From Sulfuricurvum sp. (lineage in GTDB: Bacteria; Campylobacterota; Campylobacteria; Campylobacterales; Sulfurimonadaceae), in the NCBI GenBank assembly GCA_030694265.1, contig JAUXYP010000006.1:124001-188000 (forward strand): a stretch of DNA of 64,000 nucleotides, in the 5' to 3' direction. Of this stretch, positions 430 through 38,449 are shown one piece after another (position 1 is the first letter of the stretch; each line of letters begins with the position of its first letter). The notes below the pieces were generated by a model. The model saw only the letters and a program-made list of their open reading frames with translations. It ran no database searches and was not told where the DNA came from. A program made the translations under genes and the position numbers.

Positions 430-1008
430 ATGAGCGTTTTTGCCATTATAATGTTTGCCGCGACACTGTATTTTGCGTATCAAATTTTTCGTCACGTTCA
501 ATCTTTGGAAGATGTGCCTCGTATCGAGGATGAAGAACAAAAGGAAACAGCAGACGTAAATAGCCTTGTGGAAGAAGCCGACGAAGCGTATCAAAGTGAA
601 GACTTGAAAACGGCGCAGGAAAAGTTGGGACAAGCCTATCTTGCCCAGCCTCAGAATGTGGAGATTTTAAATAAGTTGGCATACGTGCATGCAAAACGCG
701 GGGACATACAGTTGGCTATTGATTTGTATAATCGTTCGTTGAGTATGGATGAAAATGATGATTTAACCCACAATGCACTGGCTTCCCTGTATCGCACAAA
801 TGGCTCTTTAATGTTGGCAAAAGAACATTATGAAAAAGCGTTGATGATTGATGATGCGTATGCGGTGACCTATTATAATTATGCGAATCTTTTGGTCGAT
901 TTAGGCGAGAGCGACCAAGCTCAAGAAATGTATCTCAAAGCCTTGGAATTAGACAGCGAGATGAGCGATGCACGTGAAGCACTAGAAAACCTAAGGAAAG
1001 TGCAATGA
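430..1008 (+). CDS. Membrane-anchored TPR protein
   Basis: A 192-residue protein. Residues 1-20 form a hydrophobic N-terminal membrane segment (MSVFAIIMFAATLYFAYQIF). An acidic linker follows, then about four tetratricopeptide repeats from residue 55 to the end, with the A/G/Y/A/P spacing typical of TPRs (for example NVEILNKLAYVHAKRGDIQL). It is probably a scaffold held at the inner membrane with its repeats in the cytoplasm. A TTG seven codons upstream is possible, but the ATG at 430 follows AAAAGGGAG and places the membrane segment at the very start. The stop overlaps the next start by 4 bases, so translation is probably coupled to the NYN gene. The partner is unknown. Confidence 0.8.
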   Translation: MSVFAIIMFAATLYFAYQIFRHVQSLEDVPRIEDEEQKETADVNSLVEEADEAYQSEDLKTAQEKLGQAYLAQPQNVEILNKLAYVHAKRGDIQLAIDLYNRSLSMDENDDLTHNALASLYRTNGSLMLAKEHYEKALMIDDAYAVTYYNYANLLVDLGESDQAQEMYLKALELDSEMSDAREALENLRKVQ

Positions 1009-31771: not shown

Positions 31772-32635
31772 TTATTTACGAAGATGCATATTTTTTTGTA
31801 AAATAATATTGTCAAATTTATGTGATTTTGATAAGTGTTTTTTGACTTTACTTGTTGGTTTATAGGTTGAAAAATTGGTTATATCTGTGAAGTTCGCTTT
31901 TAGACCTACCGTTATATTGTAGCTATCCTGCGCAATATTTTTAGTATATTCTGTTGACAAGTAGTTGAAATCTATTGAATACCCATTACATATCTTATTT
32001 TGATTCATGCGATAAGAATAACCTACTTTAATCGCATCATTAAGATAATAGTTGATGCTACTTTCATAGTTTTCCTCTTTTGCGGTAAGAGTATTGTAAA
32101 TCTGACTGCTGTTTAGATGGGTGTCAATGGTCCCTATCGGTGTTTCGAAACGTTTCCCTATCTGACTATAAGTGTCTTTTGTTATTTGACTGCTTGCTTT
32201 ATTATCTTCTAAAATTTGATATCCATTTAGTCTGCTAATATTTTCTCCAAGTTCTACATAGAGGTCATTATAGAGCATATAACCAACAGCAACGGCACTG
32301 GAATATTGGTTGAAATTATTACTGATGGAATCATTTTCAGGTAAATTTTCATTAATGTAATTGGCACCGATATTTATGTAGGTAGACGTTCGGAAAGGAT
32401 TGTATGTTACAACAGCACCCGTTTTAAATGCAGTGCCAGATCCTTCAACTTTAACTTTTAGATTTTGAGTATTATAAAAAAGACCGACACCGTTCGTTGT
32501 ATTTCTGTCTTCGCTCTTTACCCCATAAATTGACATTTGTTTAGTACGCATTAATAGATTTATATCAGCTAAGCTAGAAGCACAAAGAGGTACTACTGAA
32601 AAAATAAAGGTTATTATTTTAATGGATAGCCTCAT
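31772..32635 (-). CDS. Putative outer-membrane beta-barrel protein next to the pga genes
   Basis: A 287-residue protein with a signal peptide (cleavage likely after CASS, near residue 22). It is followed by alternating beta strands with aromatic girdles (for example VGYSYRMNQNK, SAVAVGYMLYNDLYVELG), enough for 12-14 strands. The last strand-like stretch ends around NFTDITNF. A basic 30-residue tail follows instead of the usual terminal aromatic residue. It lies 72 bases after pgaD on the same strand, where a PNAG exporter would be expected. PgaA itself is about 800 residues with TPRs, so this is not a normal PgaA. Confidence 0.6.
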   Translation of the reverse strand: MRLSIKIITFIFSVVPLCASSLADINLLMRTKQMSIYGVKSEDRNTTNGVGLFYNTQNLKVKVEGSGTAFKTGAVVTYNPFRTSTYINIGANYINENLPENDSISNNFNQYSSAVAVGYMLYNDLYVELGENISRLNGYQILEDNKASSQITKDTYSQIGKRFETPIGTIDTHLNSSQIYNTLTAKEENYESSINYYLNDAIKVGYSYRMNQNKICNGYSIDFNYLSTEYTKNIAQDSYNITVGLKANFTDITNFSTYKPTSKVKKHLSKSHKFDNIILQKNMHLRK

Positions 32636-32707
32636 TAGGATTGTTATATGCCTTTTATTGTGTTTGTGTCTATGAAATGGGGGTCACTCCGAAGCGCTTA
32701 CATTGAT

Positions 32708-33139
32708 TTATGAAATGTGATCATCCATGCTGATAATATGACCTTGGTCATCAAAATAAACTGTAACCAATTGACTATTAGAACACTGTTGCAGCTGAGT
32801 ATTGTCGATGTTAAAATAATTAGCATAATCATTAGAAGTATAGAGTAAATGTTCACTAGGAGCTTGATGCCGATTGAGCCTTGAGAGGATAAATAGTACT
32901 ATGGGCGTGCCAACAAGCATATATAGGGCATGTTCAAAAGTTACGCTGTGAATTTCACCAAAAATCCAATCCGACAGTTCATCAGCAGGTGCATTTAGCG
33001 TAATGATTCTATAAAATATGTGAAAGACTGGCTTCCAAAGATAGATAAACCCCAACCATAGGAGCACGGTCGCTATATCCCAAATGATTCTTTTGGCTCT
33101 AGGCAGCTCACGTCGTTTATTAATTATTAACGTTTCCAT
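32708..33139 (-). CDS. pgaD: PNAG synthase accessory subunit, PgaD-like
   Basis: A 143-residue protein with two predicted membrane helices (about residues 20-38 and 68-88), placed directly after pgaC. The N-terminal INKRRELPRAKRIIWD, the two-span topology, the length and the position match PgaD. In E. coli PgaD binds PgaC and together they sense c-di-GMP. Sequence conservation in this family is low, so the call leans on context. Confidence 0.78.
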   Translation of the reverse strand: METLIINKRRELPRAKRIIWDIATVLLWLGFIYLWKPVFHIFYRIITLNAPADELSDWIFGEIHSVTFEHALYMLVGTPIVLFILSRLNRHQAPSEHLLYTSNDYANYFNIDNTQLQQCSNSQLVTVYFDDQGHIISMDDHIS

Positions 33140-33143
33140 GTCG

Positions 33144-34436
33144 TTACACCTTCTTTTTCAATTGTTGATGTGCGCCTCGGTCTGGGCTTACCCATCTCGC
33201 TCGACCTTTTTTAGCCAATAAAACTTTGGGAAAAGCTGTTACCGCTGTAAACAAATTTAGTAGCCAATAGACAAAGGGATACCAAATCATCCAAAAGTAG
33301 TTTTTACCTAATCCTTGGTCATAATGACCATCCAACCATTTACTAACCGCAAACTGTATCAAACATGCACCGATTAAAATGACACTGGTTTCATCCGGTA
33401 AAATAGGTGAATGTGAGGGCATTACATAGGACATCGGCATAAATAGACTAAGAAACCAAACCGTAAATACAATCACCATACTGTAGGCCCAAATCGTACT
33501 TAGCATCAGCTCAACCATGAGCCCCCATAGGTGGGTTTGCGTAGGGTGAAATAAAACTTTGAAATTTTTAAACATGACTTGAACGCCGCCCATAGCCCAA
33601 CGCAAACGTTGTTTCCATAACCCTGACAATGTCTCCGGCATCAAAATCCATACCAATGATCGAGGTTCAAAACGTACATCCCAGCCGTTACTTTGTAATT
33701 TCCATGAAATGTCAATATCTTCGGTCAGAGCATCCGGATTCCAATAACCCACCTCGTGAACAGCTGCTTTTCTAAAACCTGTTATCACTCCAGAGACGGT
33801 AAATATTCGTCCAAAACTGCGTTGTGCACGTTTAATCATACCAACGATAGAAGAAAACTCGCCAACTTGAATTTTGCCCAATAAAGTTGTGCGATTACGT
33901 ATTCTTGGGTTGCCGGTTACAGCAGCAACTTCTGGATAGCGGATGAAATGTTTCACCATCCAATAGACACAGTTTTTATCAATCAAGGCATCCCCATCAA
34001 TACAGATCAAGTACTCATGTTTTGCCAACAATGCACCTGCCTGTAACCCTAACGCTTTTCCCTGATTTTTGGCCAAATTGACCACTTTTAATTTTGGATT
34101 GTCTTTTGCTAAATTTACTAATATTTCTAAAGTATCGTCTTTACTCCCATCATTGATGGCGATGACTTCAAACTCGGGGTAGTCCACATTGAGTGCATAG
34201 GAAATGGTTTCGATAGCATTTTGCCCTTCGTTATAGCACGGAATTAATATGCTGACTGGTGGCCATTTTTCATTGGGCCTAAGCGGTGGAATTGTGTATT
34301 TAGCGTAGGGGCGTTCATTTTTATAATAAAAAAAGATGGCTCCTACTATCCATAAACTTGACATGAATAAGGGATAGTAAAAGATAAAACCCAGTAGTGT
34401 ATGCCAGACTAAGTGCAAAAATATAACGAAAGTCAT
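33144..34436 (-). CDS. pgaC: Poly-beta-1,6-N-acetylglucosamine synthase
   Basis: A 430-residue membrane GT2 glycosyltransferase that polymerises GlcNAc from UDP-GlcNAc. Two N-terminal helices precede the catalytic domain, with PVSILIPCYNEGQNAIE, INDGSKDDT, CIDGDALID (DxD), DALTEDIDISW and the QRLRWAMGG acceptor motif. Two or three C-terminal helices follow. The ATG at 34436 follows AAGGG; a TTG one codon earlier is less likely. Order B-C-D on the strand matches the E. coli locus minus pgaA. Confidence 0.93.
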   Translation of the reverse strand: MTFVIFLHLVWHTLLGFIFYYPLFMSSLWIVGAIFFYYKNERPYAKYTIPPLRPNEKWPPVSILIPCYNEGQNAIETISYALNVDYPEFEVIAINDGSKDDTLEILVNLAKDNPKLKVVNLAKNQGKALGLQAGALLAKHEYLICIDGDALIDKNCVYWMVKHFIRYPEVAAVTGNPRIRNRTTLLGKIQVGEFSSIVGMIKRAQRSFGRIFTVSGVITGFRKAAVHEVGYWNPDALTEDIDISWKLQSNGWDVRFEPRSLVWILMPETLSGLWKQRLRWAMGGVQVMFKNFKVLFHPTQTHLWGLMVELMLSTIWAYSMVIVFTVWFLSLFMPMSYVMPSHSPILPDETSVILIGACLIQFAVSKWLDGHYDQGLGKNYFWMIWYPFVYWLLNLFTAVTAFPKVLLAKKGRARWVSPDRGAHQQLKKKV

Positions 34437-34448
34437 CAAAAACCCTTT

Positions 34449-36479
34449 TTATTCATTAATACGATAGGTATGCATTCGTAATGATTTTTGTGAAAAATCT
34501 TCTTTGATTGCATCGGCATTAGGATTATTTTTATAGACATTATCAGGATAATACGCGATGTGATGAACACCCATGCCGTATAGATATTTGATGGTGTTGC
34601 TTAGTTCTTCAGATGAGATAGGCTCACTGTCTTTTCTCCAATTGACTGTTTGCAGCTCCATCACGGTACGTTCCAGCCCACACTGCTCCTGCTTCACATT
34701 ATGAACGATTTGCTTGTAAAACTGCTTGTGATCATCGGCTTGTTCCATATACGGCATTGCCATGATTGCAGTGTAGTCATAATTTTTTATCGACTCGTGA
34801 AGACTTTGTGCATACCATTCCTGGGCATCCTTGTTTAATGCGACTTGTGCATAGAGATTACGTGCTGTTTTTAGTCCCGGCTGTTCATTTCTTACTATTT
34901 GAGCTAGCTGCATGGCGAAATCATCCAAATAGTGTATTTTGAGTTCAGTCCACTGGTGGAATTGCTTTTTATCGGCTCTTATTTTAGTGACACTTTGAGG
35001 CAATCCCCATTTTTTATACTGTTTATGTGCCGATTCACTGTCATCTTCAAAATCAGATAAAGTGACATCGTCATGGAACAATATTCCGTCAATGTAGGCT
35101 GATTTTGCTAAATCTTCGTAAATTTCTTTAATGACTTTTTGCGCTTTTGGAGAAAATGGGGAAAGTCTAGGATAGCCCATATTCAGATGTGTCGGATCTA
35201 CTTGCAATGTTACGACCATGTCATTGACAGCCGGATTATTTTGCGGTAATTGCCACGCTATCATCGGCATCCACGCATAAATGCGCTTGACTTGTGTCCG
35301 GGTTGCAATCTGCCAGGCCACACGATTAAATAAATTGGCACGCACCGGTATATTTCGATTTGGAAAATAAACATAATCCGCAGCACCATTGGCGTCAGGG
35401 TCAGCGAAAGCTTGCAAATAAATGGTGTTGACGCTTAGTGCTTTAATACGATCGAGTAACGCACCCAAGTTTTTTTCCTGCTGAATTGGATCCGCATCAT
35501 AGATATAATCTAAATCGATATGTGCCGCTTTTGTCGTACGTGCGTCATCCGTAAAATTGGCATTTCGTACCCACATATTGAGTTTTAAATCCGGAATGGT
35601 CATTTTGTGCTCAACCAATATACGGCGTAATCCCCACAAAGGGGTAATGGCGGTATTACTGCCATCATCCAACGTCAGTCCGATTGGCATTCCCAATTTT
35701 TCAGCAATTTTACGTACCTCTATGTTGTAATGCCCATACGGCCAGACGATAACACGAGGTTTTTGCCCGGTATAGTGCTTTAAAAAAGTGTTATTTTCTA
35801 ATAAGTCATCGTGCACACGTTTCTCATAGCTTTTTTCATCTTCATAGGTATTCTTGTCGCTCAACCACTGCCGGGTTCTTACTGCTGGTTCCAGATTGCC
35901 TTGAGGATTACCCGCTATGCCTTTGTGTAAAGAGTGGGTATGGCTGGCAATTTCTACTAGGCCACTGCTGACCATCTCTTTGATCTCTTTTTGACTTAAA
36001 AACTTGTTACGGGCAATGATATGTCCACTAAAATCTACTTTCTCTTTGGACTGCAACCAACTTCCTACCAATGCAATAACGACAGGAATATTATATTTTT
36101 TGATAATTGGATAGGCATGAACGTAAACGGATTGGTAACCATCATCAAACGTCATCAAAACGGCTTTGTTTGGCAAAGGTTTTTTTTCTTTGCGATACTT
36201 TAGAATATCATCGACACTAATAAAGTGATAACCGTTTTCTATAAACCAATGTACTTGCTGATCAAAGTTTGAAGGAGTTACCGCATAGGTTGAATCAAGC
36301 GTTTCGCTTTTATCAGAGATTTCATGATAGCTTAGTATTGTAAACTCGTTTGGATTTTGATCTCGACTGCACACGCTGGGAAGGTCATTTGCCATAAGAT
36401 AACTACCTGCAACACTTAGTAGCGCCATAATCAATTTTAGTATTTTAGACCGGCCTTTCGCCGTTATGGATATAATCAT
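34449..36479 (-). CDS. pgaB: PNAG N-deacetylase/hydrolase PgaB
   Basis: A 676-residue periplasmic protein. A signal segment lies near residues 14-33 and shows no clear lipobox, unlike E. coli PgaB. The polysaccharide deacetylase domain (about 45-290) has LSYHEISD, VLMTFDDGYQSVY and EIASHTHSLHKG, which give the metal-binding Asp-His-His. The C-terminal glycoside-hydrolase-like domain (about 300-640) has IDLDYIYDADPIQQ and ILFHDDVTLSD. It deacetylates PNAG for export. The ATG at 36479 is preferred over 36521 because AAAGAGAG lies upstream of it. Confidence 0.92.
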   Translation of the reverse strand: MIISITAKGRSKILKLIMALLSVAGSYLMANDLPSVCSRDQNPNEFTILSYHEISDKSETLDSTYAVTPSNFDQQVHWFIENGYHFISVDDILKYRKEKKPLPNKAVLMTFDDGYQSVYVHAYPIIKKYNIPVVIALVGSWLQSKEKVDFSGHIIARNKFLSQKEIKEMVSSGLVEIASHTHSLHKGIAGNPQGNLEPAVRTRQWLSDKNTYEDEKSYEKRVHDDLLENNTFLKHYTGQKPRVIVWPYGHYNIEVRKIAEKLGMPIGLTLDDGSNTAITPLWGLRRILVEHKMTIPDLKLNMWVRNANFTDDARTTKAAHIDLDYIYDADPIQQEKNLGALLDRIKALSVNTIYLQAFADPDANGAADYVYFPNRNIPVRANLFNRVAWQIATRTQVKRIYAWMPMIAWQLPQNNPAVNDMVVTLQVDPTHLNMGYPRLSPFSPKAQKVIKEIYEDLAKSAYIDGILFHDDVTLSDFEDDSESAHKQYKKWGLPQSVTKIRADKKQFHQWTELKIHYLDDFAMQLAQIVRNEQPGLKTARNLYAQVALNKDAQEWYAQSLHESIKNYDYTAIMAMPYMEQADDHKQFYKQIVHNVKQEQCGLERTVMELQTVNWRKDSEPISSEELSNTIKYLYGMGVHHIAYYPDNVYKNNPNADAIKEDFSQKSLRMHTYRINE

Positions 36480-36528
36480 AATCAGAGTACTCTCTTTAAA
36501 TTTTAATAGGACACTATACATTTATCTA

Positions 36529-36550: not shown

Positions 36551-37723
36551 TTACTGTGAGTTTTTATCCCATTTGATAGTAAAAGTTGTTCCCTGCAATA
36601 TCGTTGAGTCAACGCTTATGTGAAAGTTATATTCATTACATATCATCTGGATAATATTGAGACCGATTCCAAAGCCGCCGTTAGCGTCATCAAAGCGGGT
36701 ATAGCGGTTGAAAATTTGATCGATTTTAGCACTTTCTATCCCAATTCCTGTATCCCGGACGCTGAGAAAAGATTCGTTCAGCGTTATATAGATATCTCCC
36801 GATGGTTTATTGTATTTGACGGCATTTGAGAGTAAATTATCAATGATGCGTATCATTTTTTCACGATCGATTAGCAGATTGATTTGGTGGAAATCCGTAT
36901 GTATAGAAATTTTTTTGGCATCTGCAATAGGGTGAAAATATTCGATGCGTTCTTCAATTAAAGGCTGAAGTTCAAGGATGGAATTGTTATTTTTACTGTG
37001 TTCATACATGATTAAAAATGCAAGATCATTGTAGAGATTTGAAATGGTTCTAGATGCGACATCAATCCGGTTGATATGTTTATATTGGCTGGCATCTAAC
37101 GTTTTCTTATCCAATTGCTCAATGCTCATCGTTATAATAGAGAGCGGAGTATTCAGTTCATGCGTAGTATCACGGATAAATTGATCCAGTTTTGAAATGG
37201 CATCACGAAGCGGATGTAAAAAAAGTTTTGAGAGCGCATAAATGACAGCGGATAAAAAGAGAATTGAAAAGATCAAGAAAATATAAATGCTTTCTCGTGT
37301 TTGTTTCAGTTGAGGATCAGTACTATTTGTCCGTATGACAATATAGTGAATGTCTTTCAGATGTGCCAATTCAATCATGTCGATGTAATAATAGTGATTT
37401 TGATATTCAAAAAAACCTTTCTGAAACGGAAATTTTAGGTGAGGTTTGGAAGAGTATAGGATGTCTTTATTGTGGGTTAACAATATGATATCAAAACGGG
37501 GATCACGGCTTAGATGTTGATGCGCCTCTGTTAAATTTTTGGCATTAGTAATGTGTTCTTTTTGCGCACTTATATAGTAAATCATCGCGTCGTGCCGCAT
37601 CTCTATGAGTACTTTTTTTTGGTAGATGTAGTACATGGCTGAAATAATTATGAGAAATACAGTATTTAGAACAACAAAAAGGAATACGAACCGCAGCAGA
37701 GCCTTTCGTTCAGGACTGCGCAA
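36551..37723 (-). CDS. Sensor histidine kinase
   Basis: A 390-residue membrane kinase. One helix near residues 10-30, a periplasmic domain of about 110 residues and a second helix near 145-165. The H box is DTTHELNTPLSIITMS, the N box DNLLSNAVKYN, then RDTGIGIES and GFGIGLNIIQMI. The frame is open for 41 more codons, but those overlap the regulator gene. The TTG at 37723 has AAGGA seven bases upstream and overlaps the regulator stop by 14 bases. It sits just before pgaB on the same strand. The signal sensed is unknown. Confidence 0.88.
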   Translation of the reverse strand: MRSPERKALLRFVFLFVVLNTVFLIIISAMYYIYQKKVLIEMRHDAMIYYISAQKEHITNAKNLTEAHQHLSRDPRFDIILLTHNKDILYSSKPHLKFPFQKGFFEYQNHYYYIDMIELAHLKDIHYIVIRTNSTDPQLKQTRESIYIFLIFSILFLSAVIYALSKLFLHPLRDAISKLDQFIRDTTHELNTPLSIITMSIEQLDKKTLDASQYKHINRIDVASRTISNLYNDLAFLIMYEHSKNNNSILELQPLIEERIEYFHPIADAKKISIHTDFHQINLLIDREKMIRIIDNLLSNAVKYNKPSGDIYITLNESFLSVRDTGIGIESAKIDQIFNRYTRFDDANGGFGIGLNIIQMICNEYNFHISVDSTILQGTTFTIKWDKNSQ

Positions 37724-38402
37724 TTTGGTATCCTTGACCTCGAATATTTTGTATGGTCTCTTTGCCCAAATATTTTCGTAAATTTTTAATGTGGGTGCGA
37801 AGATTTTCTTCAGTCGGCTCTTCTTCAAAATCCCAGGCAGATTCAATGAGTGTTTGAGTACTTACGAGCTCATGGGGATATGAAAGAAGTATTTTAAGAA
37901 TTTTTGCTTCTTTTCGAGGAAGAACAATTTTTTTTCCACTGCTATTAAGTCGTCCTAATTTTGGATCGAAGGATATATTTTCGGTAACATGGATAGGTAT
38001 GTCAGGTTTAATCAGAGCAGAACGTTTGATCAACGCCTTAATGCGCAATTCAAGCTCTTTGAGTTCAAATGGCTTTTTAAGGTAGTCATCACACCCTGCA
38101 TCATAAGCGCTAGAGAGATCGTCAATTCCGTTGAGAGAAGTGATAAAAATAGCAGGAGACTCTTTGTGATTTTTTCTAAGTTCACGTAAAACATCGAAGC
38201 CATTGCAAAAGGGAACTTTAACATCGAGTAAAAAAAGATCAAATGATCTTTCATAGCCTAAATCCATAGCTTTTTCACCATCATAAGCACATACCACTTC
38301 ATAGCCATGCTCGGTTAGAAATTCTTCTATGATCGTGGAAAGGGTAAAATCATCTTCCAGTAGCAAGATGCGAAGAGGTGAAGCGGATGTTGGTTTTGGC
38401 AT
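37710..38402 (-). CDS. OmpR-family response regulator
   Basis: A 230-residue regulator. The receiver domain (residues 8-122) has LLLEDDF, the phospho-acceptor Asp in DLFLLDVKVPF and the Lys in DDYLKKPFEL. The C-terminal winged-helix domain (about 140-230) includes RKEAKILKILLSYPHELVS and LRTHIKNLRKYLG. It is the partner of the kinase that follows. TATAAT lies at 38438-38433. Its closeness to pgaBCD makes these genes candidate targets, by inference. Confidence 0.92.
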   Translation of the reverse strand: MPKPTSASPLRILLLEDDFTLSTIIEEFLTEHGYEVVCAYDGEKAMDLGYERSFDLFLLDVKVPFCNGFDVLRELRKNHKESPAIFITSLNGIDDLSSAYDAGCDDYLKKPFELKELELRIKALIKRSALIKPDIPIHVTENISFDPKLGRLNSSGKKIVLPRKEAKILKILLSYPHELVSTQTLIESAWDFEEEPTEENLRTHIKNLRKYLGKETIQNIRGQGYQIAQS

Positions 38403-38449
38403 GATAAATATCACTTATGAATTTTATTTTGAATTATAAATCATTTAAG

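Follow-up and report, generated by a model that had tools for sequence, protein, structure and literature searches.

A pgaBCD locus without PgaA in Sulfuricurvum, its neighbouring beta-barrel gene and a putative cross-phylum lineage of PgaA-less loci

Introduction

Current models of the secretion of the biofilm polymer poly-N-acetylglucosamine (PNAG) hold PgaA, with its tetratricopeptide repeat (TPR) scaffold and its pore, to be essential. In the pgaABCD system of E. coli, PgaA joins a TPR domain to a 16-stranded barrel; the TPR domain is important in this species (PMC9384988, PMC5933820), and its deletion from PgaA abolishes biofilm (PMC5933820). We report on a 64,000-nucleotide stretch of the genome of a Sulfuricurvum sp. 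(Campylobacterota, Sulfurimonadaceae; GenBank assembly GCA_030694265.1, contig JAUXYP010000006.1, positions 124,001 to 188,000, forward strand), hereafter the window, which carries pgaB, pgaC and pgaD followed by the gene of a 287-amino-acid (aa) barrel protein. An earlier inspection of the letters alone (the sequence-only reading) had seen no PgaA in the window and had proposed that the barrel replaces it as a minimal exporter, with PgaB or another protein as periplasmic guide.

Acinetobacter baumannii has two pga clusters, of which one is a full pgaABCD and the other, A1S_0938-0940, consists of pgaBCD (PMC9935895). AbPgaB1, from the second cluster, deacetylates PNAG, and its deletion cuts biofilm to 58% (PMC9935895). 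The same cluster has been classed as pga-like, with conservation across most strains (PMC4256060), and a partial duplication of pga in this species has been noted (PMC7112194). The latter source also describes a separate clade of pga-derived operons, in Thauera and others, in which no pgaA could be detected, and suggests that other modes of export may exist.

The window locus shares with E. coli PgaB, PgaC and PgaD, including the catalytic residues of PgaB, but E. coli has PgaA and the Sulfuricurvum genome has none; furthermore, E. coli PgaB is a lipoprotein (C21; PMC9384988), whereas no lipobox could be read in the sequence of the window PgaB. The likeness to A1S_0938-0940 extends to the pgaBCD order, the lack of an adjacent pgaA and PgaB itself (55.8% identical over 90% of the query), the difference being that A. 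baumannii also holds the full pgaABCD. The Thauera-type operons are likewise Gram-negative and without detectable pgaA but they have no pgaD, no hydrolase domain and a repeated pgaC (PMC7112194), whereas the window keeps pgaD and a two-domain PgaB.

Results and Discussion

The three pga genes lie on the minus strand, and all score far above their NCBIfam equivalog cut-offs, which confirms the sequence-only reading on this point. The gene pgaB (34449..36521) encodes a 690-aa two-domain protein, a PNAG N-deacetylase plus glycoside hydrolase (GHL13/GH153), with Pfam domains PF01522 and PF14883 (TIGR03938, 826.6 bits, cut-off 321.9); it matches E. coli PgaB (4f9d) with an E-value (E) of 4.4e-128 in phmmer. 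The start had earlier been placed at 36479, which is a later in-frame ATG; the gene itself stands, but runs to 36521. The 431-aa product of pgaC (33144..34439) is the PNAG synthase, of glycosyltransferase family 2 (TIGR03937, 595.1 bits, cut-off 422.3), and the 143-aa product of pgaD (32708..33139) is its accessory protein (TIGR03940, 127.2 bits, cut-off 31.45; also PF13994). The locus thus has the synthase, PgaD and two-domain PgaB with catalytic residues of a pgaABCD system, and lacks PgaA.

This absence extends from the window to the whole genome, which comprises 2,147,094 bases and is rated 100% complete. The PgaA profile TIGR03939 returned TPR-type noise only, of which the best reached E 0.0025 and 15.5 bits where the cut-off is 366.65, and nothing at E<=1e-5; PF21197, the PgaA barrel, gave no match at E<=10. 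E. coli, as positive control, scored above cut-off for both. A pgaA elsewhere in the genome, a finding that would have spoken against the sequence-only reading, was not encountered by either profile. As a side observation, a 203-aa frame in the window (592-999) has weak TPR matches to TIGR03939, and is too short and too weak for PgaA.

The same holds for most of the family. PgaB is over cut-off in 47 of 200 Sulfurimonadaceae genomes, and PF21197 in 7; at E<=0.01 the latter is found in 12 genomes, none of them Sulfuricurvum. Six of the 47 PgaB genomes have a strong PF21197 match, and these belong to two genera (g5 and g9) with a divergent type of PgaB, 32-39% identical to that of the window; PgaA stands directly before PgaB in all five that were fetched. 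The other 41 comprise 28 Sulfuricurvum, 10 of genus g2 and 3 of genus g16, and 39 of them are without PF21197 at E<=0.01, the remaining two (G058 and G063) having weak matches. We compared the window with 40 loci of the family (L072-L111), leaving out G102, whose PgaB is split over two contigs, and G033. PgaB and PgaC are 71-93% identical to those of the window across these loci. No pgaD was recognised after pgaC at six of the 41 loci (L078, L083, L089, L090, L093 and L097), which may reflect divergence or true absence. Gene order was taken from a simple caller of longest open reading frames (ORFs), which fails on some GC-rich loci, and the presence of PgaA was therefore re-tested by tblastn.

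Some long frames of the family combine parts of the system. In G063, a frame of 1012 aa (L129:6482-9517) joins a polysaccharide deacetylase domain to TPRs and, towards its C-terminus, matches PgaA_barrel weakly (839-925, E 0.00018); it adjoins a glycosyltransferase gene and is possibly a fusion exporter of PgaA-PgaB type. Long frames with deacetylase matches also occur in G059 (contig 3, 1041 aa) and G007 (contig 162, 1018 aa), the latter again with a weak PF21197 match.

In a wider search, the best 80 of 249 relatives of the window PgaB come from Campylobacterota, Gallionellaceae, Methylotenera, Pelistega, Lysobacter, Perlucidibaca, Alkanindiges and many Acinetobacter; two records, L157 (titled Desulfosporosinus) and L194 (Acidobacteria), are possible binning errors. 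With eight PgaA queries, tblastn found no PgaA in the fetched DNA of 78 of the 80; in 71 of the 80 the DNA reached 3 kb or more beyond pgaB on its upstream side. The two others, L173 and L176, have PgaA in a neighbouring operon on the opposite strand. In whole-genome searches PF21197 was found in 5 of 19 relatives, and TIGR03939 was over cut-off in the same five, of 25; the chromosomes, complete by title, of Acinetobacter dispersus (L186) and Acinetobacter sp. KCTC 92772 (L191) gave no PgaA by profile. Acinetobacter venetianus RAG-1 (L174) was likewise negative, without PF21197 and with TIGR03939 not over cut-off.

A tree of 64 PgaB rows, picked from 135 PgaB loci and with long branches flagged, is split by a single 100/100 branch into 52 PgaA-less and 12 PgaA-linked rows. 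The PgaA-less side spans Campylobacterota, Betaproteobacteria and Acinetobacter, and the PgaB of an A. baumannii strain (CP035931) falls in the same branch as that of the window, which accordingly shares with A1S_0938-0940 its PgaB clade as well as its gene arrangement. In E. coli numbering, H184, H189, D466, D467, D472 and E474 are invariant in all 121 PgaA-less PgaB rows (96 distinct), and D114 and D115 are found in 119, the other two being gaps. We take D114, D115, H184 and H189 to be the deacetylase residues. For the hydrolase domain, D474 of Bordetella PgaB (Bordetella numbering) is the probable catalytic residue (PMC5933820).

Judged from these sequences, the absence of PgaA appears to be a property of a whole lineage and not of one locus, and its interest exceeds that of an isolated oddity. 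Its A. baumannii member is already known; in the open-licence PMC literature searched, PgaA-less pgaBCD was found described neither as one cross-phylum lineage nor in PgaA-free genomes. Loss of the lipid anchor was considered as a mark of these PgaBs and rejected, as the PgaA-linked PgaBs of Acinetobacter and of g5 and g9 are also without an obvious lipobox (N-termini compared by eye). In the two exceptions above, Alkanindiges (L173) and a Moraxellaceae metagenome-assembled genome (L176), the PgaA-less pgaBCD lies opposite a second operon that contains pgaA and pgaC and no pgaB, as if the two operons shared parts.

The outer-membrane barrel of 287 aa (31772..32635, minus strand) adjoins pgaD, and its link to PNAG is doubtful. 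It matches no Pfam or NCBIfam family, PF21197 included, and has no TPR by Pfam. An AlphaFold2 model from 20 alignment rows (mean predicted local distance difference test, pLDDT, 78.8; predicted template modelling score, pTM, 0.69) places 14 strands in residues 34-245 and has one short helix (22-30) between the signal peptide region and the barrel, and the tail is basic, with 9 K/R and 2 D/E in residues 249-287. Model and Pfam agree in this with the sequence-only reading, which had described a barrel without TPRs and with a basic tail after the last strand. PgaA differs from this protein in its TPR domain and in its 16 strands. Many barrels tie in structure comparison (FhaC, Z 14.3; PelB, 13.8; CymA, 13.7; OmpG, 13.6; AlgE, 13.2; also TamA and BamA), none standing out, and the fold is silent on what passes. 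The solved barrel of PgaA is not among the matches shown, which says nothing either way, and profile A1, built from 20 relatives of the barrel, found no barrel in the PDB. OmpG and CymA are 14-stranded monomeric porins. The barrel resembles them in size and predicted strand number (Z 13.6-13.7), but sequence identity is 7-11% and many unrelated barrels reach an equal Z. A pore of porin size is plausible on this model, and a barrel too small for a glycan is not what it predicts. In genus g2, members of the barrel family have about 100 further residues after the shared tail, by eye resembling repeat or Ig-like domains. Four relatives (L125, L126, L127 and L128) end exactly after N-I-K-x-H-[IL]-S-E, while the others continue into the basic tail.

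The barrel gene is co-oriented with pgaD and follows it at 72 bp, with no terminator-like site in between. The order recurs in two other species, G086 (barrel 72% identical) and G074 (53% identical, 9-bp gap); the barrel lies directly after pgaD at three of 28 Sulfuricurvum pga loci examined, and at a fourth locus (L106) it is on the upstream side of pgaB, from which one gene separates it. Profile A1 matched 23 of the 200 family genomes, one of them (G161) in a C-terminal extension only; 16 of the 41 Sulfuricurvum genomes have the barrel, as do 6 others of the family and 4 of 397 genomes of a separate Campylobacterota draw. PgaB occurs in 29 of the 41 Sulfuricurvum genomes, a fragment in G132 being counted. 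Among the 30 Sulfuricurvum genomes that are at least 90% complete, a cut on completeness only that lets in G130 with 8% contamination, 10 have both, none the barrel only, 12 PgaB only and 8 neither. For all 41 the corresponding numbers are 14, 2, 15 and 10 (p = 0.084, uncorrected for relatedness), the two with a barrel and no full PgaB being 81% and 88% complete. Outside the genus, a full-length PgaB was found in none of the six barrel genomes, and the barrel in none of the 13 PgaA-less PgaB genomes.

Position is variable. In G078, rated 100% complete, pgaBCD stand at the same site (83, 92 and 80% identical) with no barrel; in G128 they stand there and the barrel is elsewhere; and in two genomes, G072 and G076, the barrel occupies the site without pga (L117, L118), pgaB and pgaC lying elsewhere. 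The site lies between genes presumed to encode SprT and TrmA (these names, like Mfd and YmdB, come from reading the sequences only), an interval that, to judge by its contents, seems prone to gain and loss of genes. Co-occurrence of barrel and pgaBCD in relatives is thus patchy: all 10 near-complete carriers have PgaB, but 15 of the 29 PgaB genomes have no barrel by profile search. The proposal that the barrel replaces PgaA as a minimal exporter is weakly supported and runs counter to this distribution. The barrel is a patchily distributed porin-like protein whose gene stands beside pgaD in a few Sulfuricurvum species, in an interval of variable content, and it is probably not the missing PNAG exit. 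In three Sulfuricurvum genomes (L106, L112 and L113) it adjoins a gene labelled, from its sequence, as P-type ATPase-like.

Other exits were sought among known exporters of Wza type (PF02563), AlgE type (PF13372) and BcsC type (PF05420). The first two occur in 17 and 18 of the 41 Sulfuricurvum genomes, the third in none of 10 genomes examined, and none tracks PgaB, by inspection only. A conserved neighbour as hidden exporter was also rejected: when the neighbours of pga at the 40 family loci and in the window were clustered, the recurrent ones were chromosomal housekeeping genes, an AAA/FtsH-like protein in g16 and the like, with no common outer-membrane protein. Three porin-like genes, without Pfam match, lie close upstream of pgaB at other loci. 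Two, in Campylobacterota loci (L157:8883-9959 and L149:8603-9730, at 41 and 183 bp), encode proteins 43% identical to each other, ending in VYSF and unrelated to the window barrel; the third is a 433-aa ORF 13 bp upstream of pgaB at a g2 locus (L092:11210-12508).

Taken together, we think it probable that PgaA-less pgaBCD is a lineage distinct from pgaABCD, whose product leaves by an outer-membrane protein other than PgaA, the 287-aa barrel not being its dedicated exporter. PgaC and PgaD would polymerise PNAG and pass it into the periplasm, as their family membership implies; PgaB, from its family and its conserved catalytic residues, would deacetylate and cleave it there; and the product would exit through a protein that is not consistently encoded beside pgaBCD. 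The barrel may contribute where present. Several points weigh against this. A PgaA may be present that is too divergent for both profiles. The tree sample is biased by similarity towards the window, with only 12 PgaA-linked rows and no Bordetella, and the split could soften under even sampling. In the literature found there is no demonstration of PNAG in any PgaA-free member, and as A. baumannii has a coexisting PgaA, its biofilm phenotype is no proof of PgaA-independent export. The own genome has no exporter of Wza, AlgE or BcsC type, so that with PgaA also missing few known exits are left, of which the barrel is the closest at hand; and the barrel is associated with PgaB in the 30 more complete genomes (Fisher test, p = 0.029, uncorrected for relatedness).

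These last two points also favour the barrel as the exit for PNAG in those Sulfuricurvum species in which it is present, with PgaB as periplasmic guide and other porins elsewhere, as do its place and orientation after pgaD, kept in G086 and G074, and a predicted 14-stranded model of porin size that has CymA, OmpG, PelB and AlgE among many tied folds. We nevertheless hold it distinctly unlikely, given the PgaB genomes without barrel, the barrels without full PgaB in and outside the genus, the barrels at the site without pga or away from pgaBCD, and the lack in this protein of any TPR or other periplasmic domain, the TPR being needed for biofilm in E. coli PgaA (PMC5933820). Extended to the whole lineage in Campylobacterota, Beta- and Gammaproteobacteria, the idea would be export without a PgaA-type TPR porin through small barrels of general type recruited lineage by lineage, with PgaB as guide; the exits would be the 287-aa barrel in Sulfuricurvum, the porin-like pair of L149 and L157 and the third such gene in L092, and we find this very unlikely. 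That no polymer is exported at all is simply unlikely: PgaB, freed of the TPR scaffold of PgaA, would deacetylate PNAG and cut it to oligosaccharides, or hold it back in the cell wall or periplasm, and no more than short products would diffuse out through general porins. The conservation of both sets of catalytic residues, the lack of any tested exporter family common to PgaA-less members and the hydrolysis of deacetylated PNAG (dPNAG) by PgaB alone (PMC5933820) are in line with this, while the A. baumannii member supports a cell-attached exopolysaccharide and biofilm, though in a strain that has PgaA (PMC9935895). A remnant, with pgaBCD in decay after the loss of pgaA, is scarcely credible; loss of PgaA in enterobacteria has been described as suggesting lost PNAG production (PMC7112194), but here PgaB and PgaC are well conserved across the family loci, the catalytic residues are kept, and one clade extends across phyla. 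A widely shared lineage with strongly conserved PgaBCD in PgaA-free genomes means either another way out or a product whose export, if any, is not in polymer form. Either outcome, if true, changes how PNAG capability is read from genomes, and can be tested in tractable environmental species.

Along the minus strand, the window locus reads SprT-like gene, response regulator, histidine kinase, pgaB, pgaC, pgaD and barrel, and TrmA-like and Mfd genes come next after the barrel on the opposite strand. The sensor histidine kinase (36551..37846, minus strand; HisKA, HATPase_c) is the upstream neighbour of pgaB, and its partner is a response regulator of OmpR type (37710..38414, minus strand; Response_reg, Trans_reg_C). 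This two-component system was considered as regulator of pga and rejected: in L077 and L110 its two genes come after the SprT-like gene, at the opposite end of pgaBCD, and since they stay with the SprT-like gene there, their link to pga is not specific.

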